The notes under the pieces: generated by a model
Databases searched by the model: none
The model's input: only the letters and a program-made list of their open reading frames with translations
Told to the model about the DNA's origin: nothing
Source: an uncultured Erythrobacter sp.
GTDB lineage: Bacteria > Pseudomonadota > Alphaproteobacteria > Sphingomonadales > Sphingomonadaceae
Direction: 5' to 3'
Assembly (NCBI GenBank): GCA_947488325.1
Contig: CANKYZ010000003.1
Coordinates: 372,001-436,000 of the forward strand
Length of the DNA stretch: 64,000 nt
Program-made: the position numbers and the translations under genes
Part shown: positions 2 through 47,877 of the stretch, piece after piece
How the letters are laid out: each line of letters begins with the position of its first letter
Numbering within the stretch: the stretch's first letter is position 1

Positions 2-1384
2 AATGTCTTCGTCGCCTCGAACGAGAAAGAGGCACAAACGCAGGCGGGCGACGGCATCACGCTCACCCGCGACAGCGACGTCCTCGACACATGGTTCTCC
101 TCAGCCTTGTGGCCCTTTGCCACGCTAGGTTGGCCGGAAGAAAACCAACCGCTGCTCGACAAGCACTTCCCCAACTCACTGCTGATTTCCGGCTTTGACA
201 TCCTGTTCTTCTGGGATGCGCGGATGATGATGATGGGGCAGTACAATATGGGCACCGCGCCCTGGCCCAAACTCTATTTGCACGGTCTCGTCCGCGCCGC
301 CGACGGCTCCAAAATGTCTAAGTCGAAAGGCAATGTCGTCGATCCGCTTGGCCTGATTGATCAGTTTGGCGCGGACGCGCTGCGCTTCTTTATGGCGGCG
401 ATGGAAAGCCAGGGCCGCGACATCAAAATGGATGAAAAGCGGGTCGAAGGATACCGCAATTTCGCGACCAAGCTTTGGAATGCTACCCGGTTCTGCCAAT
501 CCAACGATATCGGAGCATCAAGCGTGTTGAAGGCTCCGCGCGCGCGCCTCGCGGCAAATCAATGGATCATCGGTGAGGTGCAATCGGTTTGCGAAGAGAT
601 TGAAGCAGCAATGGCCGATCTGCGCTTCGACGCGGCCTCCAATGCGATCTATCAATTCACTTGGAGCAAGTTTTGCGATTGGTATCTTGAGCTGATCAAG
701 CCGGTTTTTAACGGTGAGGCGGACAACCCCGCTGCAATAGAAACCCGCGTGGTTGCCGGTTGGGCGCTCGATCAAATCTTTGTGATGCTGCACCCGTTCA
801 TGCCCTTTATCACCGAAGAATTGTGGCATGCTCAGGCGACGCATAGCGGGGACAAAAGGAAATACGATCTCATCACGGCAAGCTGGCCAAGCCCACGCGC
901 AGAAATCTCCAAAGAGGCAACCGATGCAATTGACTGGGTAATCGACCTCACCACCAATGTTCGCAGTGCCAAGAATGAGCTGGGTATCCCACCCGGCGCC
1001 AAATTAGCGGCGTTCCTGCCTAGTGCCTCTGGCATTGCGGCAAGCACACTTGCACGATCTTCTGCTGCAATCGAACGCCTTGCCCGCCTGACACCGGTGA
1101 CTATTGGCGAAGCCCCCGAAGGCCCTGCCATGCAAGTGACCGCAGGCAGTGACGTATTCATCGTCCCACTAGAAGGGATCATCGATATCGCGGAGGAAAA
1201 GGCGCGTCTCGAAAAGGCGCTGGTCGCATCACAAAAAGAGGCCAAATCGCTCGAAGGAAGGCTGTCCAACGCCAATTTCGTCGAACGCGCTAAGCCCGAA
1301 GCGGTCGAGAAAGCCAAAGCCGACTTCGCGCACCATTCAGCGGAGGTTGGACGGTTAGAAGAAGCGCTAGGGCGGCTCAGTTAA
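2..1384 (+). CDS. valS: Valyl-tRNA synthetase, C-terminal part (5' end outside window)
   Basis: This is the end of a class Ia aminoacyl-tRNA synthetase that charges tRNA-Val in the cytoplasm. The frame is open from base 2, so the start lies upstream. The visible part opens with the ValS-typical stretch [14 protein letters not shown] and then carries the signature GSKMSKSKG, which closes over the adenylate. An anticodon-binding helical domain follows ([21 protein letters not shown]). The last about 70 residues are a Lys/Glu/Ala-rich coiled-coil arm, the usual C-terminal tRNA-binding arm of ValS. The stop TAA is directly followed by the GTG of queE, so the two are probably cotranscribed. Identification is firm; only the N-terminal half is missing. 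Confidence 0.97.
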
Positions 1385-2119
1385 GTGTCATTGATCCTCG
1401 CCACAGACGATGCAGGCGGTCCTGAAATCTTCGCCTCTCTACAAGGTGAAGGGCCGAGCATCGGCATGCCGGTCGCCTTTATCCGGCTGTCGCGTTGCAA
1501 CCTTGCCTGCATCTGGTGCGACACGCCCTATACGTGGCATTTCGACGATGATGAGCGCCCGCACCGCGATGGCGTGACCTATGATCGCAAGGCTAATCAA
1601 GTCACGTTAAGCACCGAGGGCGCCGCCGCTAAGATTACGGCGCTTGGTCAGAATCGCCTCGTCATTACGGGCGGGGAACCTTTGCTTCAGGCCAGCGCAC
1701 TGACCGAAATGCTCGAACATTTACCGGACATCAGCGTAGAGATCGAAACCAACGGTACGGTAAAGCCGCCGGCGCGGCTCGACATTCGGGTCGATCAATA
1801 CAATGTCAGCCCCAAATTGGCGCATTCGGGTAATTCCGCAAACCTTGCCCTCATTCCAGAGCGACTCGACGAATACGCAGCCGACCCGCGCGCCTATTTC
1901 AAATTTGTGATTGCCGATTCGCAAGACGTTGATGAAGTTCTGGAGTTAAAGCGACGATATCGTTTTCTGTCCGATAAAACCTTCCTGATGGCCGAAGGAA
2001 CGGATGTTAAAGATTTGAAAGGTAAACAGAAATGGTTGAGCAAACTATGTCTGGATCACGGATTACGCTTTTCAGATAGGTTGCACATTCACCTTTACGG
2101 CGACACGCGCGCCACCTAG
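1385..2119 (+). CDS. queE: 7-carboxy-7-deazaguanine synthase
   Basis: QueE is a radical SAM enzyme that turns 6-carboxytetrahydropterin into 7-carboxy-7-deazaguanine in queuosine precursor synthesis. The protein has 244 residues. The cluster cysteines C38, C42 and C45 (CNLACIWC) form the CxxxCxxC radical SAM motif, and FASLQGEGPSIG at residues 16-27 is the family N-terminus. The SAM-binding TGGEPLLQ motif follows. The start is GTG, immediately after the valS stop (TAAGTG), which suggests translational coupling. The other que genes are not in this window. The TIR-receptor gene begins 22 bases downstream on the same strand. Confidence 0.95.
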   Translation: MSLILATDDAGGPEIFASLQGEGPSIGMPVAFIRLSRCNLACIWCDTPYTWHFDDDERPHRDGVTYDRKANQVTLSTEGAAAKITALGQNRLVITGGEPLLQASALTEMLEHLPDISVEIETNGTVKPPARLDIRVDQYNVSPKLAHSGNSANLALIPERLDEYAADPRAYFKFVIADSQDVDEVLELKRRYRFLSDKTFLMAEGTDVKDLKGKQKWLSKLCLDHGLRFSDRLHIHLYGDTRAT

Positions 2120-2141
2120 TATTCATGTAGGGGCAAGGTTC

Positions 2142-3941
2142 ATGGATATTTTCATCAGTTATTCTCGGGCAGACCGAGAACGTGTCGATTACATCGCCAA
2201 GGCACTCCAGGCCGAAGGCTATGACGTCTGGTGGGATCGCGATATTCGAGCGGGCGAAGAATTCGACCATGTTATCGATAAAGCGATCAAAAGCTCGAGC
2301 GCGATTGTCGTGGTGTGGTCGAACCAGTCAATCAACAGCCGTTGGGTCAAAGAAGAGGCCGAAGACGGCGTCGAAGCCGACACTTTGGTGCCAGTTACGA
2401 TTGATCCGGTCATTATCCCGCGCGGTTTCCGGCGGATTCAGGCTGCTGAATTGCAAGACGGCGGCGACAATCCCACACAAAGTGTGAACTGGCCGGAATT
2501 CCTCGACAGTATTAGGAAAATTGCGGGCGAATCCAAAGCTCTACCCGAAGGTACATCACCCAAGACCCCGGCTGAGCTGCTTCAGGACATAACGTCCTCA
2601 GCAGATGGGCAAGCTACGACCGCTGCTAGCACTACGAGCAACGGGTCAACTCTGCCTGTTTGGAAGCGCTATTGGCCGATGGCCGCTGGCGTTGTCGGTG
2701 TAATCGCGGCTGGATTGCTCGCTTTACAAATGTTCAGCGGCGGGCCCAGCGCTCCTCCACCGCCAGGTGATATGACCCCGGTTGTGCTTGGCATCTATCC
2801 GAATGAGAGTTTCGGCATCGATCAGGCTGACGGCTTACGAGCTGCATTCAGCGATACGCCATCTGTTATGGTCCGCGACCTCGCAGCATCGCTCGACGCG
2901 ATGAAGGGGCGGAATGCACCTGAGCTGATCGAAGGGCTTAAGACAAACCTAGCGCAGCGAAATGTTATCGCCATTGTTGGCCCTTCCATCACCGAATTCA
3001 CGCCCGAAGTGCTGCGCGTGGTAGAAGAAAGCGGGCGTCGTCCGGCGATTGTTCTGACAACCGCATCATCGCGGCGGAACATCGGTTGGGATGAAAGCAC
3101 CCTTCCGATTTTTCGCGTTGGATCAGGAATGGATGAACGCGCGGATCAATTTTCGCGATTGGCGCAAAACACTGTCGCCAGCGGGGTCGAGTTGATCATG
3201 CTGTATGAATCGGTGCCCAATTCTGACGATTTGACCTATGGTGAACTGTTCTTCCAACGCATTACCGAACGCCTGCCCCAATGGCAGGAATGGTCCAATC
3301 AAAACCGTGTCCGCAGCATTTCTTATGTTCGCGGTGAAATCATGGAAAAGGCATCATTGCCGCGGATCCGGCCCATCTTTGACCAAAACAAGATGATCAT
3401 AGTGGTCGGTCTAAGCAGTGATTACCGCGAACTGGTCGAAAACCTTTATCGTGCTGATGATGAACCACGGGCAGCGCTATTGGGCGGTTGGAATTCGAGC
3501 AAAGCAGTTCAGCAGATCAGCCGGGAAATGGACATTCAGCATACTCGTCTATTCGATATGACGGACGTTTATCGCAGCCCCGCTGACACGCGCGGCATGC
3601 CGGATTCGGTGCGTTTTCAAGAAACATTTGGCATTCTGACCCCTGCTCTAAGGCAAGAAGCGGTTGCATATGATTCCGGCCTCGTCATCAAACAGGCTGT
3701 TACCCAAATGGAAGGCGATGTGACTGCCGAAAAGTTGATCGAAATACTGCGCGGCCAGCGCTTTAACGGCGTGACTGGAGAGATCGCCTTTAGCGGCGAT
3801 GGCCCAAATTGGGGCCAGAACAGCGGTCAGGCCGGTGGAATGCGTCCACTCTACAATCTGCACTACAACCCCGCCGCTACGAATTGGCTTGAGATTGAAA
3901 GTTTTGATGCTCTGTTGGCGCGGGAAGTTGCTAGCAATTGA
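2142..3941 (+). CDS. TIR domain - transmembrane - periplasmic-binding-like receptor
   Basis: This 599-residue protein has three parts. Residues 1 to about 130 are a TIR domain opening with DIFISYSRADRE. It keeps the WDRDI loop at 31-35 and the RWVKEE helix at 67-72; E72 sits where the catalytic Glu of NAD-cleaving TIR enzymes such as SARM1 lies. A Ser/Thr-rich linker leads to one membrane helix at about 178-198, preceded by K175 R176, so the N-terminus should be inside. From 212 to the end is a type I periplasmic-binding-fold domain of the Leu/Ile/Val-binding kind (AIVGPSITEF, FNGVTGEIAFSGDG). There is no N-terminal signal peptide. I infer a membrane receptor that senses an extracytoplasmic ligand and signals through TIR. 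It lies 22 bases after queE with AAGG close to its ATG, so it is probably in the valS-queE transcript. The ligand and enzymatic activity are unknown. Confidence 0.85.
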   Translation: MDIFISYSRADRERVDYIAKALQAEGYDVWWDRDIRAGEEFDHVIDKAIKSSSAIVVVWSNQSINSRWVKEEAEDGVEADTLVPVTIDPVIIPRGFRRIQAAELQDGGDNPTQSVNWPEFLDSIRKIAGESKALPEGTSPKTPAELLQDITSSADGQATTAASTTSNGSTLPVWKRYWPMAAGVVGVIAAGLLALQMFSGGPSAPPPPGDMTPVVLGIYPNESFGIDQADGLRAAFSDTPSVMVRDLAASLDAMKGRNAPELIEGLKTNLAQRNVIAIVGPSITEFTPEVLRVVEESGRRPAIVLTTASSRRNIGWDESTLPIFRVGSGMDERADQFSRLAQNTVASGVELIMLYESVPNSDDLTYGELFFQRITERLPQWQEWSNQNRVRSISYVRGEIMEKASLPRIRPIFDQNKMIIVVGLSSDYRELVENLYRADDEPRAALLGGWNSSKAVQQISREMDIQHTRLFDMTDVYRSPADTRGMPDSVRFQETFGILTPALRQEAVAYDSGLVIKQAVTQMEGDVTAEKLIEILRGQRFNGVTGEIAFSGDGPNWGQNSGQAGGMRPLYNLHYNPAATNWLEIESFDALLAREVASN

Positions 3942-3975
3942 GTTAGCGGGACCGGCTTAGGCAGTATTGGCCAAA

Positions 3976-5661
3976 TCAGCCCTGTGAACGCCAGCGCAAC
4001 ACAACGCGTTCAACCAGCTCTTCTTCGCCGCCGCCGCTGTTCCACAGCTCAGCAAAGCTGGGGTCTTCCGATGCAGGACGTTTGTGCTCTTCGAGATTGT
4101 CAAAGCTCACACGGATTGGGATCGCGACGCCTTCTCCGCAAATGATAACCTCTCGGTTGCGTAAGGCGGGGATGGAATCGAGAAATCCGCGCGCGCCCTC
4201 GGGCATGGCAGCCTTCACGAATGCTTGATCACGGTCATTGTTGAGCCGCATAGAAAGGATGGTGCCGCATTGTGAAAGCACACCTTCGGCCAGATCCGAG
4301 GGACGCTGGGTAATCAGGCCCAAAGAAATTCCGTATTTCCGGCCCTCTTTGGCAATCCGGCTGAGAATTTTTGCCACAGAGGAACCGTCTGAGTTTTTCT
4401 CATTCGGAACGTAACGGTGCGCCTCTTCGCAAACGAGCAGGATAGGGCGGGTTTTTTCCTCCCGGCCCCAGATTGCAAAGTCGAACACCAAGCGGCTTAA
4501 CACAGCAACAACCGTTGAAGTGATGTCAGATGGCACGCCCGACACGTCGATGATGGAAATTGGCTTTCCATTGCCCGGCATACGGAACACTTTAGAAATG
4601 AAGTCGGCCATCGTGTCGCCAACCAACATGCCAGAGAACATGAATTGATAGCGTGGATCGTTCTTGATCTCGTCCAGTTTCCCTTTGATCCGCATAAACG
4701 GGGCAGAGGAAGTCGCTTTGTCGAGCTTACCCATCTCGTCCTGCAACCTCGTAGAAAGATCAGACAATAGGTAAGGGATTGGCGAATCGACGGTGATTTT
4801 GCCCATCGTTTCCGCCAGCCGGTTTTTAGAGCGGGCGTGCAACAGACACTTGGCAAGAATATCCATATCGACCTGGCGTTCATTGCCATCGCTGGTCAGC
4901 AGCACTTCGCAATGCTCCTCAAAATTCATCAACCAATAAGGCATTTGCAGATTGGAAACATCCAAGATTTGTCCAGTCTGGCGGAATGCAGCGGAGTATT
5001 CGCCGTGAGGGTCGACCATTACGATGTGGCCTTCAGGTGCGGCCTCGCAAATACGATGCAGGATCAATGCGGCGCTGGTTGATTTACCGGTACCGGTCGA
5101 TCCGAGCAAAGCAAAGTGTTTGCCTAACATCGCGTCGATATACAGGCCGGCACGAATATCTTTGGTCGGGAACACCGTCCCGATTGTTATGTTGGCACGG
5201 CCATCACTTGCATAGATTTGTTCAAGATCTTTGGTGGTCGCAGGATAGATTAGAGCCCCGGGAACCGGATAGCGCGTCACGCCGCGTCTAAATCCATGAA
5301 TCCGACCGGTTAGTTTTTCTTCTGCGCCTTCGCCAAGAAAGTCGATATGCGCAATGATGCCAGCTTCGTTGCGGCGGTCTTTGCGTTGGTCGCGAACGTT
5401 GGCGAGCAACCAGGAATCTCCAATGCGGATTTTGATCTGACTGCCGACCTGCCCTGCCAATGCGATCGAGCGGTCTTCGTCTTCCATACATTCGTTTAGA
5501 CGCTGTAGGTCGAGTGCAATTTGAGAGCCCGCACCCGAAATTTCCAAGACCACGCCGATTGGCTGAGTGGCATTGTTCGACTCCGCTGCACCTGTATTAT
5601 GCGCAGTAGTATCAGCAGAATTGTCCGCCGATGCGAAATTGTGGTTACCCATATCGGTCAT
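3976..5661 (-). CDS. HerA-like ATPase (DUF87 family)
   Basis: This 561-residue protein belongs to the HerA/FtsK-type hexameric ATPases. An Asn/Ala-rich N-terminus is followed by a beta-barrel-like HAS region (about 33-135), then the RecA-type core. Walker A is GSTGTGKST at 187-195, Walker B is ILLVCEEAH at 407-415, and LITQRPSDL at 449-457 is the HerA sensor segment. HerA translocates DNA and normally works with the nuclease NurA in end resection, or with effectors in defence systems. No NurA-like gene is beside it. It runs convergent to the TIR receptor, with 34 bases between the two stops. The start ATG has AGGAACACCGA upstream. Similar stand-alone ATPases are common in sphingomonads, so a housekeeping role is also possible. 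Confidence 0.85.
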   Translation of the reverse strand: MTDMGNHNFASADNSADTTAHNTGAAESNNATQPIGVVLEISGAGSQIALDLQRLNECMEDEDRSIALAGQVGSQIKIRIGDSWLLANVRDQRKDRRNEAGIIAHIDFLGEGAEEKLTGRIHGFRRGVTRYPVPGALIYPATTKDLEQIYASDGRANITIGTVFPTKDIRAGLYIDAMLGKHFALLGSTGTGKSTSAALILHRICEAAPEGHIVMVDPHGEYSAAFRQTGQILDVSNLQMPYWLMNFEEHCEVLLTSDGNERQVDMDILAKCLLHARSKNRLAETMGKITVDSPIPYLLSDLSTRLQDEMGKLDKATSSAPFMRIKGKLDEIKNDPRYQFMFSGMLVGDTMADFISKVFRMPGNGKPISIIDVSGVPSDITSTVVAVLSRLVFDFAIWGREEKTRPILLVCEEAHRYVPNEKNSDGSSVAKILSRIAKEGRKYGISLGLITQRPSDLAEGVLSQCGTILSMRLNNDRDQAFVKAAMPEGARGFLDSIPALRNREVIICGEGVAIPIRVSFDNLEEHKRPASEDPSFAELWNSGGGEEELVERVVLRWRSQG

Positions 5662-5795
5662 TCGGTGTTCCTAAGCCTCTTGGCGATAGCCAACTAATGC
5701 CCCGCCGGATTCTTGTGATCCGGTCGATTTCTCAATCGATGCTTTTGCAGGAACGAGGTTAAGATCGGGTCAACAATTTCAGTTCGGAAGGCCGG

Positions 5796-6560
5796 TCAGG
5801 ACTTGGAGAATAACCTGCCGGTGAGCCAACCCATGCCAACAGATAGGAAGATTGCGCCCAGGCCATAAAAAAGTGACCAGCGCTGCGATGCATACACGAC
5901 AGTGCCTTCAAGTCCGACTTTTACGACCTCAATATCCGCAGTCGCACTGGCCAAGACCCGGCCATCTGCGATGGCAAAAGTTTCGGCGGTGTACTGGCCA
6001 GTCGTCACATTGGAAGGCAGGATAATACGTGCCTGATAAAGCACGCCTTCGCTAATTCTAACTCCGTCAGAATCCTCCTTATAGAGGCCAAGCCGCTCAC
6101 GCGTTTCAACCAATCCATTGGCGAACCGCGTCTGCTCTTCAGGTTCGATCTGACCGGTAGGGCTGAGCTGAATGAACTCTGTTCCGAGTTCGTAAATTGC
6201 CGCCGTACGCGGGTCTACAATATCCTCAATTGGACGCGATGCAGCAACCGCAAAAAACGACGGCGCGGATTGAAAATCGCTGGAACCAGAATTCATCCAA
6301 ATGCCAACAATACGTTCTTTTTCACGCAATCTAATTCGTTCCGCAGGGCCTTTCAGAACAACAACGATATCATATTCTGTGCGGCCTGCTGGCCCGGCTG
6401 GGTTAATTACCGCTCCGTAAAGCAGCAGGTTTGCACCTGTGAAACCCTGACGAACCTCAATCCGTGACTGGCTGACTTCTGGCACCAATAAAGGTTCTCT
6501 CTGCCCCATGAGGAACGGGGCGAGCATTAGCAGAGCGATCAAGGTCCACGAACGCTTCAC
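5796..6560 (-). CDS. TIGR02186-family membrane protein
   Basis: This 254-residue protein matches the uncharacterised family found beside TauE/SafE exporters in alphaproteobacteria. It has an N-terminal signal peptide (RSWTLIALLMLAPFLMG), an extracytoplasmic beta-rich body (IEVRQGFTGANLLLYGAV, YDIVVVLKGP) and one C-terminal membrane helix (about 228-248) ending in a short basic tail. It should be anchored in the inner membrane with its bulk in the periplasm. The start is GTG and overlaps the TauE stop by GTGA, so the two are translated together. By association it may assist anion or sulfur-compound export. No catalytic motif was recognised. Confidence 0.8.
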   Translation of the reverse strand: MKRSWTLIALLMLAPFLMGQREPLLVPEVSQSRIEVRQGFTGANLLLYGAVINPAGPAGRTEYDIVVVLKGPAERIRLREKERIVGIWMNSGSSDFQSAPSFFAVAASRPIEDIVDPRTAAIYELGTEFIQLSPTGQIEPEEQTRFANGLVETRERLGLYKEDSDGVRISEGVLYQARIILPSNVTTGQYTAETFAIADGRVLASATADIEVVKVGLEGTVVYASQRWSLFYGLGAIFLSVGMGWLTGRLFSKS

Positions 6561-7471
6561 AACGGACTGACTGTATAAATCTCATCAGGCTGTACGCCGA
6601 GCCCATAGAGCATCCGCAGCGCAACCAGGAGTACGATCCCGGCAAGTACGAGCCGCAGCACCTCAGGCCGCGCCTTCATCGCAATTTGCGTACCAAATTG
6701 AGCGCCCAGAACAGAACCAAGCAACAATAGACCCGCAAGCACGATGTCGACTGACTTTGTCGTCAGTGCATGCGTCATGGTTGTCACCATCGTCACGAAT
6801 AGGATTTGAAAAAGCGAAGTGCCCACCACTACATTGCCGCTCATCCCCAAAATGTAGAGCATAGCCGGTACAAGAATGAAGCCCCCGCCAACCCCCATCA
6901 GCATCGTCAGAATCCCAACAAGGACACCTAAGATTAGCGGTGCAATGGGTGAAATATAAAGACCCGAACGATAGAAACGCAATCGGTAAGGTAAGCCAGC
7001 GACCAGGGGGTGATGGCGTCGCTTGCGTGGGCTTGCATCACCCTTTTTACGGTTCGGCAACAGGGAATCGAATGCTTCGCGCATCATCAAAGATCCGATT
7101 GCACCGAGGAGAACTACGTAAAGAAAACTGATCACAACATCGATCTGTCCCCATGCTTGAAGCAATCGGAACAGGCCGGCGCCAATCAGCGCGCCAACCA
7201 CTCCGCCGCCAACCATGACCATCCCCATCCGATAATCGACGCCATTGCGTTGACCATGTGCGATAACACCGGAAACGCTTGCGCCAGTTACCTGTGTCGC
7301 AGCAGATGCCGCAGCGACTGTTGGTGGGATCCCATAGAAGATCAAAAGCGGCGTCGTCAGGAAACCGCCGCCCACTCCGAAAAGGCCGGACAAGATGCCG
7401 GTAAGCCCGCCCAAAAGAACAATGAACAGACCGTTCACTGACAGATTCGCAATGGGCAGATAAACATCCAT
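6557..7471 (-). CDS. Sulfite exporter TauE/SafE family permease
   Basis: An inner-membrane permease of about 304 residues with two homologous halves, each holding the family's glycine motif: GLFGVGGGFLTTPLL near the N-terminus and MGVGGGFILVPAM in the second half. Around eight membrane segments can be read. The family moves sulfite, sulfoacetate or related organosulfur anions out of the cell. I place the start at the ATG giving MDVYLPIANL; an upstream ATG would add nine residues with three cysteines (MCCCGSRTG), which looks unnatural. The downstream partner of the TIGR02186 family overlaps it by four bases. The substrate is not determined by the sequence. Confidence 0.88.
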   Translation of the reverse strand: MDVYLPIANLSVNGLFIVLLGGLTGILSGLFGVGGGFLTTPLLIFYGIPPTVAAASAATQVTGASVSGVIAHGQRNGVDYRMGMVMVGGGVVGALIGAGLFRLLQAWGQIDVVISFLYVVLLGAIGSLMMREAFDSLLPNRKKGDASPRKRRHHPLVAGLPYRLRFYRSGLYISPIAPLILGVLVGILTMLMGVGGGFILVPAMLYILGMSGNVVVGTSLFQILFVTMVTTMTHALTTKSVDIVLAGLLLLGSVLGAQFGTQIAMKARPEVLRLVLAGIVLLVALRMLYGLGVQPDEIYTVSPL

Positions 7472-7539
7472 ACCAGTCCGACTACCGCAGCAGCACAAAA
7501 GTGGGAAGGTGAAGTGTGGCCCCGATCCCCGAATGCGCG

Positions 7540-8724
7540 CTAAAACCGTGTCGAAAGTGTCGCAGCAAAACCCGAATTCGGGGCTGCATCACCTGCAACC
7601 CGTTCTCGCCAGTCTACCGATATGCGCGCTGGTATATCTCCGACTGTCATATCAACACGCAGGATAGGTCCGACATCAAGCCTGCTCGCATCTCTTTGTG
7701 CCCCGCCCCACGCACCGCCGCCAAGGCTGAAGCGCACTGGTTGATTTCTCGGACCTTCAAAGCTCACGACTTCGCGCGAAATTGCAGCTTGCCCGTCGAC
7801 AAAGGCAGTATCTGCATTCCCGCCTACAAAACCCGCACCAGCATAAGCTTCGACTCGCAAATCAAGGGGCAAACTCACGGCTGGCAATTCTGTCACCCCA
7901 TAAGCAGCAGGGCGAAGTTCCGTCCCAAACGTATTTTCTGTCACACGGAGTTCAGCAGCTAGCCGCACGGGAATTGCACCGAGAGGGCGTGCAGATACCC
8001 CGCTAGCAATTTCGGTTTCTCCATCAGGCACGAATGCACGGTAGGCGCGAACATAGGCACGTGGATCGTACTTCGATCCAGGCAAGGCACGAAATTGCAA
8101 GTTTGCACCAACCTGGCTCGCTCCATAAACTGGCACGCGCCCTTGCGAAATGGATGCTGATCCAGAGCCCGCACGGTAAAATGCAAAGGCGTCAAGTGAC
8201 CAACGATCAGCTCCATTACCCAGAGCCATGATTGGCGGCGCCACCCGATTAACCGCGGTGGAATTTGCAATTTGATTGGCTACGGCGCCGTCCACTTGCC
8301 GCCCCATCCGTGATGCTTCAATTATTCCCCCAGCACTTTGCGACCAATCCACTTGAAATGCGGCAGCCATCAGAAAGCTATGTCCGGCGGCGATTACTGG
8401 GCTGGCTCCGAGCGTGTGAACATCAACCGATGAATCCGGACGACTTACTAGTGGCAACGCTGCGCGACCTCGCGAATTGCCCTCCAAAATGTGTTCAAGT
8501 GATGGCGGTACAAGACTCTCATCAAGCTCCAACTCGGAGCCTGAGCGCTCTTCATGACCGTCCGGGCCCTGAGCGAACAACAATTCGGCGACGGGCAGAT
8601 CAAATCCTTCAATAGGAAAGGGACTTTCCCAAAGCATCGCTCTGCCCGAGACCCAAACGCCGGCCAACAAAGCCAACATGGCTAGCGGCCCGCCTCGCCT
8701 GCGTGATACAGAATGCTGTGTCAC
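7540..8724 (-). CDS. Probable outer-membrane beta-barrel protein, NfrA C-terminal-like
   Basis: This is a 394-residue secreted protein with an N-terminal hydrophobic segment (LAMLALLAGVWVSGRAML). Its second half is rich in alternating beta strands and ends in ...ATLSTRF, a C-terminal Phe typical of outer-membrane barrels. Phrases such as SARPLGAIPVRLAAELRV, FVDGQAAISREV and SRLDVGPILRV recall the C-terminal domain of phage N4 adsorption protein A (NfrA), which pairs with the glycosyltransferase NfrB. It lacks the long TPR region of NfrA. The start is GTG and overlaps the upstream glycosyltransferase stop by GTGA. I infer an export or anchoring partner for a surface glycan. The family assignment is by eye and moderate. 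Confidence 0.6.
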   Translation of the reverse strand: MTQHSVSRRRGGPLAMLALLAGVWVSGRAMLWESPFPIEGFDLPVAELLFAQGPDGHEERSGSELELDESLVPPSLEHILEGNSRGRAALPLVSRPDSSVDVHTLGASPVIAAGHSFLMAAAFQVDWSQSAGGIIEASRMGRQVDGAVANQIANSTAVNRVAPPIMALGNGADRWSLDAFAFYRAGSGSASISQGRVPVYGASQVGANLQFRALPGSKYDPRAYVRAYRAFVPDGETEIASGVSARPLGAIPVRLAAELRVTENTFGTELRPAAYGVTELPAVSLPLDLRVEAYAGAGFVGGNADTAFVDGQAAISREVVSFEGPRNQPVRFSLGGGAWGGAQRDASRLDVGPILRVDMTVGDIPARISVDWRERVAGDAAPNSGFAATLSTRF

Positions 8725-10151
8725 ACGCCCGCAGCCTTCATTTGCTGGTCGCGAGTTCGAGTTTGCTCAACACGCGCAGGGTGACGGCTGTGCGGAGTTT
8801 TGTCCCATTCAACAGCACGACCAAGAAGAGTGCGCGAATAAGCTGATACCGCGCGGCGTCCGGCCATAATCGCCACCACGTTGGTCAATGGGATGCGCAA
8901 CACTGCCAAAACGCCTTCAGCAAAGCCATAATTGCGAACCGTAAAGGCAAAGCGCCAAGCAACACGCCAAAGGAAAAACCCAAGATTAACGATCAATAAT
9001 GCAACCAATTCAGGACTAAGCGGCGTCGGGTCCGCCACGGCGAAAGATACGGCAATTGAAATCAAAATGGTCAGGGCAAGCAGAATGTATCCCAGCAACA
9101 GCACTAAAGCAGTCAGCGGCCCCCGCCGGTCGCGCGCACGCATCCAGCCCTCTATCACTCCGCCCGACCAGCCAGTTCGATCCCACCCTTGCAATGCAAT
9201 ACCGTGAACCCAACGCGTTTTCTGGCGAACAATGTGGTCCAGACGCGACGGGAAATAAGCGCGTGTCGCAATCAGTAAATCGTCTTCACCGCGAGCGCGC
9301 ACAAACCTGCCCGTTCCGCCCATTTCCGCGATGGCAAGGCCTAACTCATAATCTTCCGTCAGTGATTCCCGCTCAAATGGAGTGTTATCTGCCCGCCTTT
9401 TGCACAACTGATCCAGCGCATCTCGCGATATTGCGCATCCCACTCCCGCCGCCGGGAGAGCTGCACCAACGGCGCTACGCACGACCATCCCTTTGCCGTG
9501 CGCTTCGGCGAATTCCTCGCAATAGTGGCTGCCCAGCCAGTTTCGACCGCCTTGCGGCAGCGGTTCAACCGGAAGCTGAGCGAAATCAGCACCATCACCA
9601 ATAGCAGCGTCTAACAGGCCCAGCCCTGCAGGATCGACCATATCTTCTGCATCATGGAATATGATTGACGCGAATTGGTGCCCAGTTCGTTGCTCATCCG
9701 CAACCAGCGCGTCGTAAAGACGGTTCAAACAATCGGCTTTTGTGCTTGGCCCCTGACGATCATGGATCACCAATCGTAGACGAGCATCACCACAAGCGCC
9801 GCGCATTGCTGCTTCGAAAGTTGCAGGATCATTGCGGTAGATGCCAATATACAGCCGAAGATCATCTTGGGGCCAGGCACCCAGGAGATGTCCAATCGTC
9901 TCAGTGATGACTTCGGCTTCTTGCCATGCAGGTACAAAAACTGCCGCTTTGCCATTGAGCGACCGCGACTGAATTTCACTGCGCCGAACACGCGGAGTGC
10001 GTGTGCGACCAGTCACCCTGAGCCACAGCCACGCTAAATCGACCGCCAGATCATCCAGCGCTCCGATCAAAAAGAAAATACCTGCGAATAGCAGCAGTTC
10101 GTGCTGAATCACAGCAAGCCACTGCCACACATCCCAGTCAATAATAGACAA
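8721..10151 (-). CDS. NfrB-like family 2 glycosyltransferase
   Basis: This 476-residue inner-membrane enzyme has a hydrophobic N-terminal segment (about 15-45) and a cytosolic GT-A domain. The domain includes AVFVPAWQEAEVI, the acidic HDAED at 166-170, LTED at 264-267 and the processive-synthase motif QKTRW (QxxRW) at 310-314. Two or three membrane helices follow, at about 345-415. The order matches NfrB, part of the phage N4 receptor glycan machine, but the C-terminal MshEN-type c-di-GMP domain of NfrB is absent. The start appears to be TTG (TTGTCTATT), with a GGGAG upstream. The stop overlaps the barrel gene, so both form one operon. The product is inferred to be an exported polysaccharide of unknown composition. 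Confidence 0.8.
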   Translation of the reverse strand: MSIIDWDVWQWLAVIQHELLLFAGIFFLIGALDDLAVDLAWLWLRVTGRTRTPRVRRSEIQSRSLNGKAAVFVPAWQEAEVITETIGHLLGAWPQDDLRLYIGIYRNDPATFEAAMRGACGDARLRLVIHDRQGPSTKADCLNRLYDALVADEQRTGHQFASIIFHDAEDMVDPAGLGLLDAAIGDGADFAQLPVEPLPQGGRNWLGSHYCEEFAEAHGKGMVVRSAVGAALPAAGVGCAISRDALDQLCKRRADNTPFERESLTEDYELGLAIAEMGGTGRFVRARGEDDLLIATRAYFPSRLDHIVRQKTRWVHGIALQGWDRTGWSGGVIEGWMRARDRRGPLTALVLLLGYILLALTILISIAVSFAVADPTPLSPELVALLIVNLGFFLWRVAWRFAFTVRNYGFAEGVLAVLRIPLTNVVAIMAGRRAVSAYSRTLLGRAVEWDKTPHSRHPARVEQTRTRDQQMKAAGV

Positions 10152-10240
10152 GACGACCCATCTCCCTGCGGGGAAATCAGACTAACGCGCCCGGTTTAAC
10201 CTTGCAACCGCTATGACTTTTCTGAAAAGGAGCGCGCACT

Positions 10241-11476
10241 ATGTCCAACAATAAAAACCCGACCGCCACTCCGCTCCGCCGTCTTATAGCGCCAGTGCGT
10301 GCATTATTTGTTGGGGACGCGTCCGCAGGGATTTTGCTGATCCTAGTTGCTGCGGCAGCGATGCTGGCGGCAAATTCACCGTTTGCGGACGAATATAAAG
10401 ACCTCTTCTACGGCAAACTGCCATGGACACCGATCCCGAAATTGTATGACCTACATCTATGGATCAATGACGGCCTGATGGCGATATTCTTCTTTGTTGT
10501 CGGACTGGAGGTTAAACGAGAACTGATATCCGGTTCACTCGCGGACCCCGCAGCTCGGCGATTGCCTATGGTGGCTGCTCTGGCCGGAATGCTAGCCCCA
10601 GCAGCTGTCTTCATGATGGTTTCAGGCGGAGGCGATTATACCAGCGGGTGGGCCATTCCTGCTGCAACCGATATCGCATTTGCAATGGGTGTATTGGGAC
10701 TGCTTGGCAACCGAGTGCCAACATCATTGCGGCTGTTCCTTTTAACCGTTGCAATTGTTGATGATATTGGCGCTGTAATGGTCATTGCGGTGTTTTATAC
10801 GCCTACGATCGAAATGATATGGCTGGTGGCAGCCGTTGTAGTGTTTGGCCTGATGGTCGGGCTAAATAGGATGCGGGTCAGTGTTCTCTGGCCATATATC
10901 CTTATGGCTGTGGTCCTATGGTATTGCGTGCTCAACACAGGCGTACACGCAACGATTGCAGGGGTTTTGGCCGCATTGACAATCCCGTTGCATCGACGCG
11001 ATGGCAATTCCATGCTTGAAAAGCTTGAGCACAATTTGGCTCCTTGGAGCGCCTATCTGGTGGTGCCGGTGTTTGGTTTTGCTAATGCTGGAGTTGCTTT
11101 GACGGGTATGGGAGCAGATGCCTTGCTCGCTCCACTTCCTATCGCGATCGCAGCCGGCCTAGTCATCGGGAAGCAAGTCGGAATATTCACGACCGTGTTT
11201 ATCGCTGACAAGTCCGGCTTCGCGCCGCGCCCAGAGAACGCAAATTGGCCAGAGATATGGGGTATTTCGATATTGTGCGGGATCGGCTTTACCATGAGCC
11301 TGTTTATCGGCGGACTCGCCTTTCCGAATCAGCCTGCATTTATTGAAGAGGCGAAGATTGGCATCCTTGCCGGATCGGCGGTTTCGGCAATAATCGGCTT
11401 TATTGTTCTGCGCTTAACAACGAAGCATCCTGATTCGGAGTGTATTGATCAAGGCCACTTGCCCAGCGAACCGTAA
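10241..11476 (+). CDS. nhaA: Na+/H+ antiporter NhaA
   Basis: NhaA exchanges internal Na+ or Li+ for external protons across the inner membrane. The 411-residue protein has the usual length and about twelve membrane segments. The paired transport aspartates are seen in AIVDDIGAV (D174, D175), and the unwound helix motif ATDIAFA lies at 142-148. The N-terminal VGDASAGILL and the FFFVVGLEVKRE segment are family hallmarks. The ATG has a strong AAAAGGAG site upstream. It stands alone, divergent from the glycosyltransferase operon, with an 89-base gap. Such an antiporter fits a marine habitat. Confidence 0.96.
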   Translation: MSNNKNPTATPLRRLIAPVRALFVGDASAGILLILVAAAAMLAANSPFADEYKDLFYGKLPWTPIPKLYDLHLWINDGLMAIFFFVVGLEVKRELISGSLADPAARRLPMVAALAGMLAPAAVFMMVSGGGDYTSGWAIPAATDIAFAMGVLGLLGNRVPTSLRLFLLTVAIVDDIGAVMVIAVFYTPTIEMIWLVAAVVVFGLMVGLNRMRVSVLWPYILMAVVLWYCVLNTGVHATIAGVLAALTIPLHRRDGNSMLEKLEHNLAPWSAYLVVPVFGFANAGVALTGMGADALLAPLPIAIAAGLVIGKQVGIFTTVFIADKSGFAPRPENANWPEIWGISILCGIGFTMSLFIGGLAFPNQPAFIEEAKIGILAGSAVSAIIGFIVLRLTTKHPDSECIDQGHLPSEP

Positions 11477-11525
11477 AATCGCAGGCCATCCGGCCTAACC
11501 CGACCAAGAGTTTCTAACCAGAATT

Positions 11526-11558
11526 GAACACGGGACGCCTTACCAGCTTCCCGTGTTC
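11526..11558 (-). terminator. Hairpin around the stop codon of the VOC gene
   Basis: A perfect 10-base-pair inverted repeat (GAACACGGGA and its complement) with a 13-base loop encloses the stop codon of the VOC gene. Only a weak T-rich tail follows on the minus strand, so it may be a poor intrinsic terminator or an mRNA 3'-end stabiliser. Confidence 0.35.
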
Positions 11559-11977
11559 TCCATGCTTGCCCATGGCTCTTTTGGTTCCAGGCTGCCGTCC
11601 TGCAAAAGCTCAATCGAGATCCCGTCAGGCGTTTTAACAAAGGCCATATGCCCATCGCGCGGCGGGCGGTGTATGATGTGACCTGCATCTGCAATGCGCT
11701 GGCACGTCTCATAGATATTATCGACGCGGTAAGCGAGATGACCAAAATTGCGCCCGCCATCATAATGCTCGGCTTCGCTGTCATCTTCCGTAGGCCAATT
11801 ATACGTTAATTCGACTTCGGCCACACCCTCCTGCCCCGGCGCGGCGAGGAAAATGAGCGTGAAACGTCCTGCCTCAACATCAAATCTGCGCACTTCTTTC
11901 AACCCGATCAACTTAAAAAAATCGACCGTCGCCTGCGGGTTGGTGATGCGAATCATGGAATGGAGAAATTTGGTCAT
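11540..11977 (-). CDS. Glyoxalase I-like VOC family protein
   Basis: This 145-residue protein of the vicinal oxygen chelate fold resembles lactoylglutathione lyase, which converts the methylglyoxal-glutathione adduct to S-lactoylglutathione. The four metal ligands of glyoxalase I are present at expected spacing: H6, E56, H80 and E123 (LHSMIRI, AEVELTYNW, FGHLAYRV, ISIELLQD). The frame is open upstream, but MTKFLHSMIRI is the normal family N-terminus and has AAAGGA about ten bases ahead, so I start there. It could act on another dicarbonyl adduct. It is a single-gene unit. Confidence 0.88.
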   Translation of the reverse strand: MTKFLHSMIRITNPQATVDFFKLIGLKEVRRFDVEAGRFTLIFLAAPGQEGVAEVELTYNWPTEDDSEAEHYDGGRNFGHLAYRVDNIYETCQRIADAGHIIHRPPRDGHMAFVKTPDGISIELLQDGSLEPKEPWASMENTGSW

Positions 11978-12080
11978 CGAAGAATATCCTTTCGCAAAGC
12001 AGTTAGAGCCCAGTATCAATGGTCGCAAGTGACCAGTCGCAACGCTGACGCTTGACCAAGCACAGGGCCAAGCATCGACA

Positions 12081-12128
12081 TCAACGCAAAACGAAAAGGG
12101 CGCGGAACTCAATTGATCCCACGCCCCG
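12081..12128 (-). terminator. Possible terminator downstream of the TorF porin gene
   Basis: On the minus strand a G-rich half (GGGGCG) can pair with a later CGCCC that is followed by TTTTCGTTTT. The loop is long and the stem short, so this is a weak candidate for ending the porin transcript. Confidence 0.3.
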
Positions 12129-12175
12129 TTCCTCCCGCTTATCTGCGGGTTACTTCGAATATCTTCGCAAGCGAT

Positions 12176-13087
12176 TTAGAAGCTTGCAGATACGGTCAGG
12201 ACAAACGCATCGTCAGTGAAGGTTCCTGCCGGATCGATTAGCGCATCGCCCTCGACGCCAACATAAGCTGCGGTGAACGTCACCGGACCGGCAGCCAGAT
12301 CAGCACCAATTGACCAATCAAATGCCTTGCTGTCGCCGGTGAAGGTCAGAAACCCGTCAGTGTAGCCAAGATGGCCATTGATAGTGATCGGTGTATCCGG
12401 AATGCCGATGCCTACATCGGTATAGAGATACAGGTTATCAGTGCTGCCGAGTGATTCCTGATCAGGCGCATAGGCGATGCCGCCGGTCAGGGATGCAGGG
12501 CCGATCGAAACACCCAGTGAACCGTAGAATTCGACATAGTCAGTTGGTCCTGCCGCAGTGGGTGCATCCGGATAGAGATAACCGATGGCACCGACATCGG
12601 CAGTCACACCGTCAGCAATGTCGCCGCTCCAACCGCCGTAAACGTCAAGCTCGGTCGATCCAAAACCTACCGTCTGTTCGTCTAGGTTGGACGCCCATGT
12701 TCCAACATAGAATCCGGACGAATGGCTGACATCAAAGCCACCTTGAACGGCGAAATCGCCGCCAGAAAGATCAACACCGCGGAAACGGTATTCTGTAGTG
12801 AATGCGACATTTGCGGAAAACGTGAATCCACTTTCGCCGGCAAGGTCACTTGCAAAAGTACCATCAATTGGCTGACCGGCACGTTCGACCTGACTGGTCA
12901 AAACGGTGCCGGAGCCATCGACAGGTCGGGGATCAAGCGCAATCGACGCTGCGATCAAGTCTGCGCTGATAGAATCATCAACGACAGGTGCATCAGAAGA
13001 AACTTCTGATGCGAATGCTGGTGCTGCAGACAGCAGAAGACCAACGGAGATAGTTGCGGCGGAGAGGCCGCGGATGGACGTGAGCAT
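12176..13087 (-). CDS. TorF-family putative outer-membrane porin
   Basis: A 303-residue secreted protein with a clear signal peptide (LTSIRGLSAATISVGLLLSAAPAFAS). It has the family's opening strand FSANVAFTTEYRFRGVDLS, then repeated amphipathic beta strands, and ends ...VLTVSASF with the terminal Phe used for outer-membrane assembly. Members are small putative porins common in sphingomonads; their substrates are not established. I place the start at the ATG giving MLTSIRG, which has AGGAAG just upstream; the longer open frame adds 34 residues without a signal sequence. It is transcribed alone. Confidence 0.82.
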   Translation of the reverse strand: MLTSIRGLSAATISVGLLLSAAPAFASEVSSDAPVVDDSISADLIAASIALDPRPVDGSGTVLTSQVERAGQPIDGTFASDLAGESGFTFSANVAFTTEYRFRGVDLSGGDFAVQGGFDVSHSSGFYVGTWASNLDEQTVGFGSTELDVYGGWSGDIADGVTADVGAIGYLYPDAPTAAGPTDYVEFYGSLGVSIGPASLTGGIAYAPDQESLGSTDNLYLYTDVGIGIPDTPITINGHLGYTDGFLTFTGDSKAFDWSIGADLAAGPVTFTAAYVGVEGDALIDPAGTFTDDAFVLTVSASF

Positions 13088-13459
13088 TACAACTTCCTTG
13101 TTTATGTTGTTGCTTCGTCCCACCTGCACATTCGACGGCTGCGTATTATTATGAGCAATCTCTGTCGAATATGAAACAATCGTGCACATTTATGCTGCAC
13201 AGCACAAGAGAAATAACATGAGGCTTCGTATCTCTATCCAACAAGGTAGAGTGTTGTTGGATTTTTGCATCAGGTATGGTCTCCAACGAAGTGGCGCGAC
13301 AAATCCGCTTTGAGGCAAAGGAGCCACGCTCAGTTGCTGTTCAGGCTCCGTCAGACTAAAGGCACGCCTCCGAACGGCAGCACTCAGGCTCACGGTATAC
13401 TGCAGTGAGGTCAAACGGATTGGACGACTGACATTATCCAGACACAATAAAGAAAAATT
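13088..13459. promoter_or_regulatory. Gene-free divergent promoter region between porin and phosphatase genes
   Basis: These 372 bases separate the TorF gene (-) from the metallophosphatase gene (+). No convincing small gene was found on either strand; the longest minus-strand frame overlaps the phosphatase and starts inside it. The region should hold both promoters. One short inverted repeat, GTGCA...TGCAC with a nine-base spacer, lies at 13182-13200 and could be an operator. No strong hairpin or known RNA element was seen. Confidence 0.4.
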
Positions 13460-47133: not shown

Positions 47134-47877
47134 ATGAGACATACCAACGGACTCGCTGGGGTTTGCAAGCTGGCGCTATTCGGTGCTGCCTACGCCCTGC
47201 TCAGCGCTTGCAGCCTAACGCCTGAGCAAGAAGCTGCCGCGATTGAGGAGGGAATCCTTTCAACGCCGGGCGCAGAGGAATTGTGGGCGACGATCAAAAC
47301 TGAGTACCCAGAAGATCTCGCGATGCTTGTGCAACAACTACAAGAGGCAGATGTCGCTGAGATCGGGAACGAAGAACTGGGCGAACAAATTGGTGCCGCA
47401 TGGCTTCGTGATTTCTTCAGCCGCATAGGTCCGGACTCAGTCAAAGCACCGGCTGCTGAATTGATCGTCTGGAGTGCAACAGAAGGCGAGCTATACACCA
47501 CGCTTCAGCGCAGCGCCGTCAACGAATGCGCCGCAATGACAATGGGTGAATGGATATTTGTAGACGCTGCAAACACCGTCGCCACAGCAGCAATCGCTAG
47601 GCGCAATGCCGCTATGGTGCGCGCGTCGGCAGCAGGACGAGACAACCCCCAAATCTATACCGAACCAGGCGAAGCCGACTTTAACCGTTTGGGTGACTCC
47701 ATTGCTTCAACTGGGCTTGATCCCGACCTTCAAGCGACATTGGGATCAGATGCCGCCATGGCTGCGCTGTCCCCAGCTGAACAATGCGAAATAGGTGTTG
47801 CCGTCTATTCGGGTCTCTCAGCACTTCCAGATGAGGAAGAGGTGGAATTGGCCGCCTATATGCTGTCCCCTGTTTGA
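47134..47877 (+). CDS. Hypothetical lipoprotein
   Basis: A 247-residue protein that I do not recognise. It has a lipoprotein signal: a basic start, a hydrophobic stretch (VCKLALFGAAYALL) and the lipobox LSAC, after which the mature chain begins with Cys. The body is Ala/Glu-rich and mostly helical by look, with three further cysteines and no named motif. The frame opens with GTG at 47125, but the ATG three codons later is the better start. It is a lone gene. It converges on the DUF418 gene with a short hairpin between them. Confidence 0.6.
   Translation: MRHTNGLAGVCKLALFGAAYALLSACSLTPEQEAAAIEEGILSTPGAEELWATIKTEYPEDLAMLVQQLQEADVAEIGNEELGEQIGAAWLRDFFSRIGPDSVKAPAAELIVWSATEGELYTTLQRSAVNECAAMTMGEWIFVDAANTVATAAIARRNAAMVRASAAGRDNPQIYTEPGEADFNRLGDSIASTGLDPDLQATLGSDAAMAALSPAEQCEIGVAVYSGLSALPDEEEVELAAYMLSPV

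Follow-up and report, generated by a model that had tools for sequence, protein, structure and literature searches.

To our knowledge, the characterised bacterial TIR domains respond to intracellular cues, and a gene in a 64,000-nucleotide stretch of an uncultured Erythrobacter sp. (contig CANKYZ010000003.1, positions 372,001 to 436,000; this whole stretch is called the window) raises the question of whether such a domain can be joined to a sensor outside the cell. The gene is an intact open reading frame (ORF) of 599 amino acids with an ATG start, at 2142-3941 on the forward strand of the window; queE ends 22 bp upstream of it, and it ends 34 bp before the stop codon of a convergent HerA-type ATPase gene, in a source assembly of 3.27 Mb and 14 contigs. 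It is a genuine gene that encodes, in order, a TIR domain, a linker, a membrane helix and a type I periplasmic-binding (Venus-flytrap) domain. This domain order, proposed in an earlier note on the same DNA, was confirmed by Pfam, by an AlphaFold2 model and by 16 full-length homologues, which are 44-85% identical to the window protein and come from the same genus (15) and from another genus of the same family (one, in genome G122). The observation is a solid one, and the TIR-Venus-flytrap protein is a real, conserved and unusual receptor architecture.

TIR and Venus-flytrap domains

The Pfam family TIR_2 (PF13676) spans residues 3-109 of the window protein (E 4.5e-25; 88.9 bits against a cut-off of 28) and matches all 16 homologues at E <= 0.01, which places the protein in that family. 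The earlier note had matched E72 to the catalytic Glu of NAD-cleaving TIRs, and in our alignment it pairs with the Glu that PdTIR and AbTIR carry in the W-x-x-x-E motif, with the nearby Trp (W68) also at its aligned position. Both residues are invariant in 16/16 homologues, as are D32 and much of the TIR domain, so that no orthologue has lost E72, and in a broader alignment of TIR sequences (23 rows, drawn from these bacteria and others) E72 is kept in all 23 and W68 in 22. In the sections of PMC7075850 cited here, the Glu is described as important for TIR NADase activity and the neighbouring Trp as contacting ligand in SARM1; the same sections place the Glu in over 70% of all TIR domains, so the presence of E72 alone is no proof of catalysis. 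Structurally, the TIR part modelled alone (mean predicted local distance difference test score, pLDDT, 91.4) yielded the TIR fold that the note had expected, and its best Foldseek match in the PDB was the AbTir TIR domain with bound 3AD (E 2.7e-6), with SPARTA and SARM1 structures, some of them holding NAD, among the 50 matches listed.

For the outer domain, Peripla_BP_6 matches residues 490-553 at E 3.2e-7 (30.8 bits, just below the cut-off of 31.7) and is found in 15/16 homologues at E <= 0.01; ANF_receptor gave 12.7 bits for the window protein, below its cut-off of 25.4, and matched 8/16 homologues at E <= 0.01. The full-length AlphaFold2 model (mean pLDDT 79.3, predicted template modelling score 0.64, TIR and outer domains mostly confident) returned 354 PDB matches at E <= 0.001, and the 50 listed comprise binding proteins, receptor ectodomains, LpoA and one unnamed bacterial protein. 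The top fold match of the outer domain was a leucine-bound ABC binding protein (4q6b, E 2.7e-12), followed by natriuretic-peptide receptor ectodomains (1t34, 8tg9 and 1dp4, E 7.3e-12), and calcium and glutamate receptors and further binding proteins matched as well; for type I binding proteins and receptors the leading E values were about 1e-11 to 1e-12. Taken with Peripla_BP_6, these matches give the domain a predicted two-lobed type I binding fold. The note had called it Leu/Ile/Val-binding, and of that description the type I periplasmic-binding fold stands; a leucine-like ligand is not established, as receptor ectodomains and LpoA also match, and the name is a superfamily label rather than a demonstrated specificity. 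No Liv-type permease or ATPase gene lies among the window neighbours at 107-13189, and gene order at the other 15 loci is that of the window as far as compared (for relatives of window genes). Elsewhere in the genome, Peripla_BP_6 was found in just one protein, which matches LppC and is encoded beside an rsmI-like gene (gene reading by eye); this is no Liv transporter setting.

Membrane topology

The linker (residues 131-172) has a mean pairwise identity of 0.23 across the 16 homologues, versus 0.77 for the TIR domain and 0.58 for the outer domain, and appears nearly unconstrained in sequence. A hydropathy scan found one main membrane helix in 16/16 homologues, with an extra weak hydrophobic stretch within the outer domain in 2/16; in the window protein the helix (residues 180-198) has a mean hydropathy of 2.07, and a Pro-rich stretch follows it in most homologues. 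W-(K/R) directly precedes the helix in all 16 (WKR in 14, WKK in one, WRQ in one), and Lys plus Arg residues flanking the helix number 2-4 on the TIR side versus 0-1 on the opposite side, again in 16/16. By the positive-inside rule, the TIR domain is thus predicted to lie inside the cell and the Venus-flytrap domain outside. The single positive-inside helix of the earlier note therefore holds for helix number and for Lys and Arg, and is weaker for net charge, which is more positive on the TIR side in just 14/16.

Distribution and constraint

A search of all 114 genomes available for the genus gave a full-length homologue at E <= 1e-60 in 15, the window's own included. In a family sample of 347 genomes (E <= 1e-40, at most three candidates scored per genome), four matched, namely the window's genome, two of the known genus genomes and G122, and the 11 matching genomes among 396 sampled from the order were all of that genus or G122; the same domain order across Sphingomonadales, which the note had proposed to look for, was thus found in the 16 full-length homologues. 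A class sample, which overlaps with the family and order samples as these do with each other, matched in 8/385 genomes at E <= 1e-30, besides the window gene by the TIR part alone (query positions 2-197 at most). Those proteins continue into multiple helices, into WD40-like, MORN, TolB/TPR-like or formylglycine-enzyme-like segments, or are the 337-aa TIR protein of the window's own genome described below (MORN was checked with Pfam, the other tails were read by eye). Viral contigs held no relative of the TIR-Venus-flytrap protein, and plasmids gave three records with matches to the TIR part only; a mobile or phage origin was rejected on these grounds.

Evolutionarily, the gene is under constraint as far as substitution rates go. 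Ratios of nonsynonymous to synonymous substitution rates (dN/dS) were calculated by the Nei-Gojobori method. Three pairs (L005/L006, L011/L012 and L013/L102) had a dS no higher than about 1.1 in each domain, and their ratios were 0.013-0.034 for the TIR domain and 0.022-0.047 for the outer domain; the other five pairs were saturated for dS in one or both domains. Such low values in close pairs show constraint, and not ongoing positive selection.

A fixed site behind queE

All 16 TIR genes lie between queE and the HerA-type gene, at 20-29 bp from queE (in G122, where the start codon is ambiguous, the gap was measured to the first aligned codon), and the TIR gene probably shares the queE transcript; a simple scan for sigma-70 promoters over 1300-4100 picked out nothing promoter-like on the forward strand, which weighs neither way. 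The distance from valS to queE ranges from 0 to 5271 bp, with valS directly upstream of queE in only some genomes, so of the valS-queE transcript in which the gene had been thought to ride, the queE linkage holds and the valS linkage is variable. On the same distances we rejected a link to valS or valine sensing, suggested by a Liv-type fold downstream of valS.

HerA occurs in 95/100 sampled genus genomes (80/81 good ones), and of the 30 best-scoring HerA loci, the TIR gene is present in 12, while queE adjoins HerA in the remaining 18. HerA is a core gene that keeps its place beside queE even in loci lacking the TIR gene; neither HerA nor queE is therefore a specific partner, and a TIR-HerA defence pair was rejected. 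The HerA anti-phage equivalog scored 274 bits against a cut-off of 850, and PADLOC HerA models match the core ATPase strongly (1.3e-116). Across the ten neighbours at 107-13189, PADLOC at E <= 0.001 gave nothing beyond these HerA models and a viperin model for QueE (4.6e-6), which like viperin is a radical-SAM protein. For the TIR protein itself, no known TIR defence system (Thoeris, CBASS or other) gave a whole-protein match with partner genes, PADLOC matches were confined to residues 2-98, and the NCBIfam model Thoeris ThcB4 scored 34 bits against a cut-off of 220.

The TIR gene is best described as an optional passenger at a fixed site, probably of the queE transcript. Of the constant, non-mobile role that the earlier note had drawn from this setting, the fixed chromosomal site was borne out; constancy was not, with the gene in only 15/114 genus genomes and gene-less loci seen. 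A FastTree tree of HerA, built from 18 genomes without the TIR gene and 16 with it, groups the 15 carriers of the genus together, with G056, G078 and G020, which lack the gene, among them; the gene may be an old insertion with later losses. In the gene-less genome G007, the HerA-queE interval (L080, about 3489-3554) holds a second 22-residue queE tail, possibly an insertion or loss scar.

Exchange of the ectodomain

The ectodomain diverges more than any other part of the locus except the linker. Between G089 and G024, protein identity is 90% for valS, 80% for queE, 77% for the TIR domain and 92% for HerA, versus 46% for the ectodomain, a value that nears the 37-43% separating the genus from G122. 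Over 120 genome pairs, mean DNA identity is 0.78 for valS, 0.70 for queE, 0.73 for TIR, 0.61 for helix plus ectodomain and 0.79 for HerA, and the ectodomain identity minus the queE/TIR mean averages -0.099 (standard deviation 0.058).

One pair, G030 (L050) and G067 (L048), departs from this pattern at about +0.22. Their DNA is 70.7% identical in queE, 73.3% in TIR, 93.9% in helix plus ectodomain and 81.4% in HerA, and in 150-base windows the identity climbs at the equivalent of window position 2672, approximately, and drops past the stop codon. The best single breakpoint within the gene falls at residue 174, the Trp of the W-K-R motif, with 64.5% identity over 543 sites before it and 93.9% over 1263 after it (log-likelihood gain 118), and dS is 2.56 (saturated) in the TIR domain versus 0.23 in the outer domain. 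At the level of sequence, the signal is clear that a helix-plus-ectodomain cassette was exchanged by recombination onto a different TIR at least once, in one of the 120 pairs. The cassette is the equivalent of window 2661-3941, and the flanking TIR, queE, valS and HerA are 71-81% identical. Contamination is an unlikely cause, since both loci lie in the interior of long contigs (341 kb and 3.1 Mb).

A second ectodomain exchange may have occurred in G053, in which valS, the TIR domain and, in the HerA tree, HerA group with G089/G021, the ectodomain is nearer the window's type and queE is nearest that of G030. Tree tests were borderline, the grouping of G067 with G030 being rejected by TIR at p 0.0496, with HerA giving p 0.073, and that of G053, G089 and G021 tested at p 0.048 for the outer domain and p 0.12 for TIR; it is the step in DNA identity that is the real evidence for exchange.

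Proposed function and alternatives

Functionally, we regard the protein as a probable receptor, and we posit, with a probability of roughly 0.55, that it gates TIR activity, an outer ligand or cue acting through the single helix on TIR assembly and so on NAD+ cleavage. It would be a one-pass inner-membrane receptor whose Venus-flytrap domain binds, in the periplasm, either a small molecule or a cue derived from the envelope or from a protein. By analogy with natriuretic-peptide and class C receptors, ligand binding might alter the packing of two or more ectodomains; this change would pass inward through the single helix and bring the cytoplasmic TIRs into the assembly that NAD-cleaving TIRs need, and the assembled TIR would cleave NAD+, giving an ADP-ribose-type signal or lowered NAD. 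For TIR domains of SARM1 and plants, self-association is required for activity according to the sections of PMC8635717 cited here. As to the purpose of such a receptor, a resident physiological role is favoured by a fixed position with no recognised defence genes around it and by dN/dS values that are low in close pairs; the diversity and exchange of ectodomains make a conflict or recognition role plausible, and are not predicted by a purely housekeeping one.

Several observations weigh against a receptor that gates NAD cleavage. Scaffold-type TIRs (a Hydra Toll-related receptor at rank 2, MyD88 and TLR15) fit the TIR model about as well as NADases do, and with the two kinds mixed among the top matches, the fold alone cannot choose between them. 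The full-length prediction, made for the monomer, left the linker and membrane helix unmodelled, and two of the 16 homologues violate the positive-inside rule by net charge. In the outer domain, cleft-side positions after strand ends are invariant in 14/54 cases versus 67/322 elsewhere (P 0.25, not significant), so we make no claim about the ligand. In a phylum-wide sample of 398 genomes, its profile at E <= 1e-12 matched the window gene and no other, and for such an orphan domain the ligand cannot be inferred by kinship. The fold also matches LpoA (5vat_A, E 1.2e-9), which ranks below the Leu-binding protein and the receptors. Lastly, the same sections of PMC8635717 describe bacterial TIR assembly as poorly characterised and possibly different.

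A markedly less probable alternative is an envelope-level conflict receptor, whose ectodomain recognises a phage, competitor or non-kin cue and whose TIR depletes NAD+ to stop growth, the ectodomains varying with the partner. An outer domain far more divergent than its neighbours (46% versus 92% for HerA in G089-G024), one clear ectodomain swap in 120 pairs with a second possible in G053, and the patchy presence in the genus with gene-less loci would all suit such a role, and bacterial TIR NADases are linked to antiviral defence in the cited sections of PMC8635717. Against it stand the site behind queE, fixed in 16/16, the lack of PADLOC matches other than HerA and viperin models among the ten window neighbours together with the restriction of the protein's own to residues 2-98, the absence of a viral-contig relative and of more than TIR-part matches in the three plasmid records, and the low dN/dS in close pairs. 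Equally tentative is a wider proposal, in which the locus would encode the bacterial equivalent of a Toll-like receptor whose sensor can be exchanged: the TIR, resident behind queE, would receive one of several old, very different helix-plus-Venus-flytrap cassettes, swapped between lineages at the W-K-R hinge and the gene end, and strain-specific recognition of a phage, competitor or kin cue would lead to NAD cleavage.

We consider it improbable that the protein is a non-enzymatic envelope-maintenance factor, with the TIR as a scaffold and an LpoA-like protein-contact domain outside that aids cell-wall or envelope assembly: LpoA ranks within the 50 best fold matches, the one further Peripla_BP_6 match found in the genome is the LppC/LpoA-like protein, cleft-side loops are not significantly enriched in invariant residues and scaffold-type TIRs match the TIR model, but the catalytic Glu and Trp are invariant in the family, the Leu-binding protein and receptor ectodomains outrank LpoA, a relationship between the ectodomain and the resident LpoA-like protein was rejected (hhalign profile comparison, E 0.38, not significant), and with no match in 99/114 genus genomes the protein is not a general wall factor.

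Annotated features and neighbouring genes

Table 1. Features of the TIR-Venus-flytrap gene and of its immediate surroundings, in window positions.
Feature	Position	Strand	Basis
TIR-linker-helix-type I periplasmic-binding-fold gene (599 aa)	2142..3941	+	ORF, Pfam, homologue alignment
TIR domain, residues 1-130	2142..2531	+	Pfam TIR_2 E 4.5e-25; model mean pLDDT 91.4; AbTir fold match
E72 codon, aligned with catalytic Glu of NAD-cleaving TIRs	2355..2357	+	Alignment; role of Glu from cited sections of PMC7075850
W68 codon	2343-2345	+	Alignment
Variable linker, Ala/Pro/Thr/Ser-rich	2532..2660	+	Alignment of 16 homologues
Juxtamembrane W-K-R motif	2661..2669	+	16 homologues; best-fitting G030/G067 exchange breakpoint is its Trp
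Single membrane helix, residues 180-198	2679..2735	+	Hydropathy scan
Predicted extracytoplasmic type I periplasmic-binding (Venus-flytrap) domain, residues 208-599	2763..3938	+	Pfam, model, fold matches
G-run before start codon, likely Shine-Dalgarno element	2130..2133	+	16-homologue comparison; putative function
queE, 7-carboxy-7-deazaguanine synthase-like radical SAM	1385..2119	+	Family match; conserved upstream neighbour
Convergent HerA-type ATPase gene	3976..5661	-	Family match; conserved neighbour

The window neighbours encode ValS, QueE, HerA, Alph_Pro_TM, TauE, a glycosyltransferase, an NhaA-type antiporter, a glyoxalase, Gcw_chp and one protein without a family; loci of other genomes were compared for relatives of window genes only. 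Start codons in the 15 homologues other than that of G122 are ATG in five, GTG in seven and TTG in three, each with an upstream G-run, which extends from GGGG to GGGGGG in these 15/16 and reads GGGAG in the other-genus copy. In G122 (L105/L085), no ATG, GTG or TTG occurs between the in-frame stop and the TIR domain, the sole start-like codon being an ATA after a purine-rich stretch. Translation of the TIR gene is perhaps weak or coupled.

Directly downstream of the TIR gene, a gene for a 257-aa protein with an N-terminal hydrophobic stretch is intact at 3/16 loci and broken at a fourth (L044:9668-10438, L046:9360-10130, L047:7191-7964 on the reverse strand, and L043:9720-10386), and the other 12 loci have no room for it at that spot. 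The protein has no Pfam family over cut-off and is weakly similar (23%, E 8e-5) to window 47242-47850; with this distribution it was rejected as part of the system.

Related TIR-one-helix proteins

PF13676 occurs at E <= 0.001 in 86/149 genomes sampled from the family, and a layout of TIR, linker, one helix and another outer domain recurs in these and other Proteobacteria, with TPR (after a TolB-like segment, by eye), SH3, YARHG or Lcl_C in the outer position. The window gene is the Venus-flytrap-sensor version of this recurrent layout. The versions with other outer domains are at loci L035, L039, L128, L138, L040, L034, L037 and L015-L031, of which the outer domains of L020, L023, L028, L034, L035 and L040 were checked with Pfam, and some TolB/TPR members have no helix over the hydropathy-scan threshold. 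A census of 30 TIR loci gave, with the window gene and G122 excluded, a TIR reading frame at 17/28, the 11 others probably reflecting the search pattern; TIR frames without a detected helix also occur, with FHA-, hydrolase- or TolB/TPR-like tails (by eye). The window's genome encodes a second TIR protein of 337 aa (G000:C10:53872-54444; L054:9864-10877) that consists of a TIR domain, a linker, one helix and a tail of about 145 residues in which Pfam recognised no outer domain, and similar tails were seen by eye in L036, L038, L041 and L042. The 2.2-Mb genome G175 carries 14 TIR_2 matches, several of them clustered (e.g., 953067-957359 and 996412-1003526 on contig C1), a local TIR expansion.

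Comparison with known systems

Among the matches listed from the open-licence PMC literature, titles and abstract openings describe no TIR-helix-periplasmic-binding architecture. Among the closest known systems are the two-gene EACC1/caspase systems of PMC7159879, which likewise join a conflict-type component to a membrane helix and an outer periplasmic-binding-protein domain; unlike the window protein, their constant part is caspase- or cyclase-type with an EACC1 partner, and the sections cited describe no TIR-helix-periplasmic-binding protein, no search here having been aimed at EACC1.

Branched-chain amino-acid binding proteins (Peripla_BP_6) share the fold of the outer domain, with 15/16 members matching, whereas the window protein is predicted to be membrane-anchored by an N-terminal helix, is fused to a TIR domain, has no ABC transporter family among its neighbours and falls under the Pfam cut-off. 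Natriuretic-peptide and class C receptors also carry a type I periplasmic-binding fold in a membrane receptor, the natriuretic receptor being a one-pass protein, but their output is a guanylate cyclase or G-protein module where that of the window protein is a TIR, and identity in the fold alignments listed is 9-16%. The order of cytoplasmic output, one helix and periplasmic-binding domain is found in actinobacterial Ser/Thr kinases with an extracytoplasmic substrate-binding domain, with a kinase in place of the TIR. AbTir, PdTIR and SPARTA TIR-APAZ have in common with the window protein the TIR fold and the W-x-x-x-E motif with its catalytic Glu, and differ in that the input of the window protein is predicted to be extracytoplasmic; we know of none of them that is tied by one helix to a periplasmic-binding domain.

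Toll-like and interleukin-1 receptors resemble the window protein in having an ectodomain outside, one helix, a TIR domain inside and signalling by TIR association (cited sections of PMC8635717 and PMC7075850). Those receptors have an N-terminal ectodomain of leucine-rich repeats or immunoglobulin domains and a C-terminal TIR; here, in contrast, the TIR is N-terminal (residues 1-130) and the ectodomain C-terminal, in a predicted type II orientation, with a periplasmic-binding fold, a putative NADase-type TIR and a bacterial host. The system is small, consists of a single gene and is testable, and G030 and G067 are natural chimeras, with a common ectodomain on different TIRs. If a TIR is indeed wired by one helix to an outer binding domain, it would link a signal outside the cell directly to NAD metabolism, in an arrangement like that of the animal Toll-like receptors.

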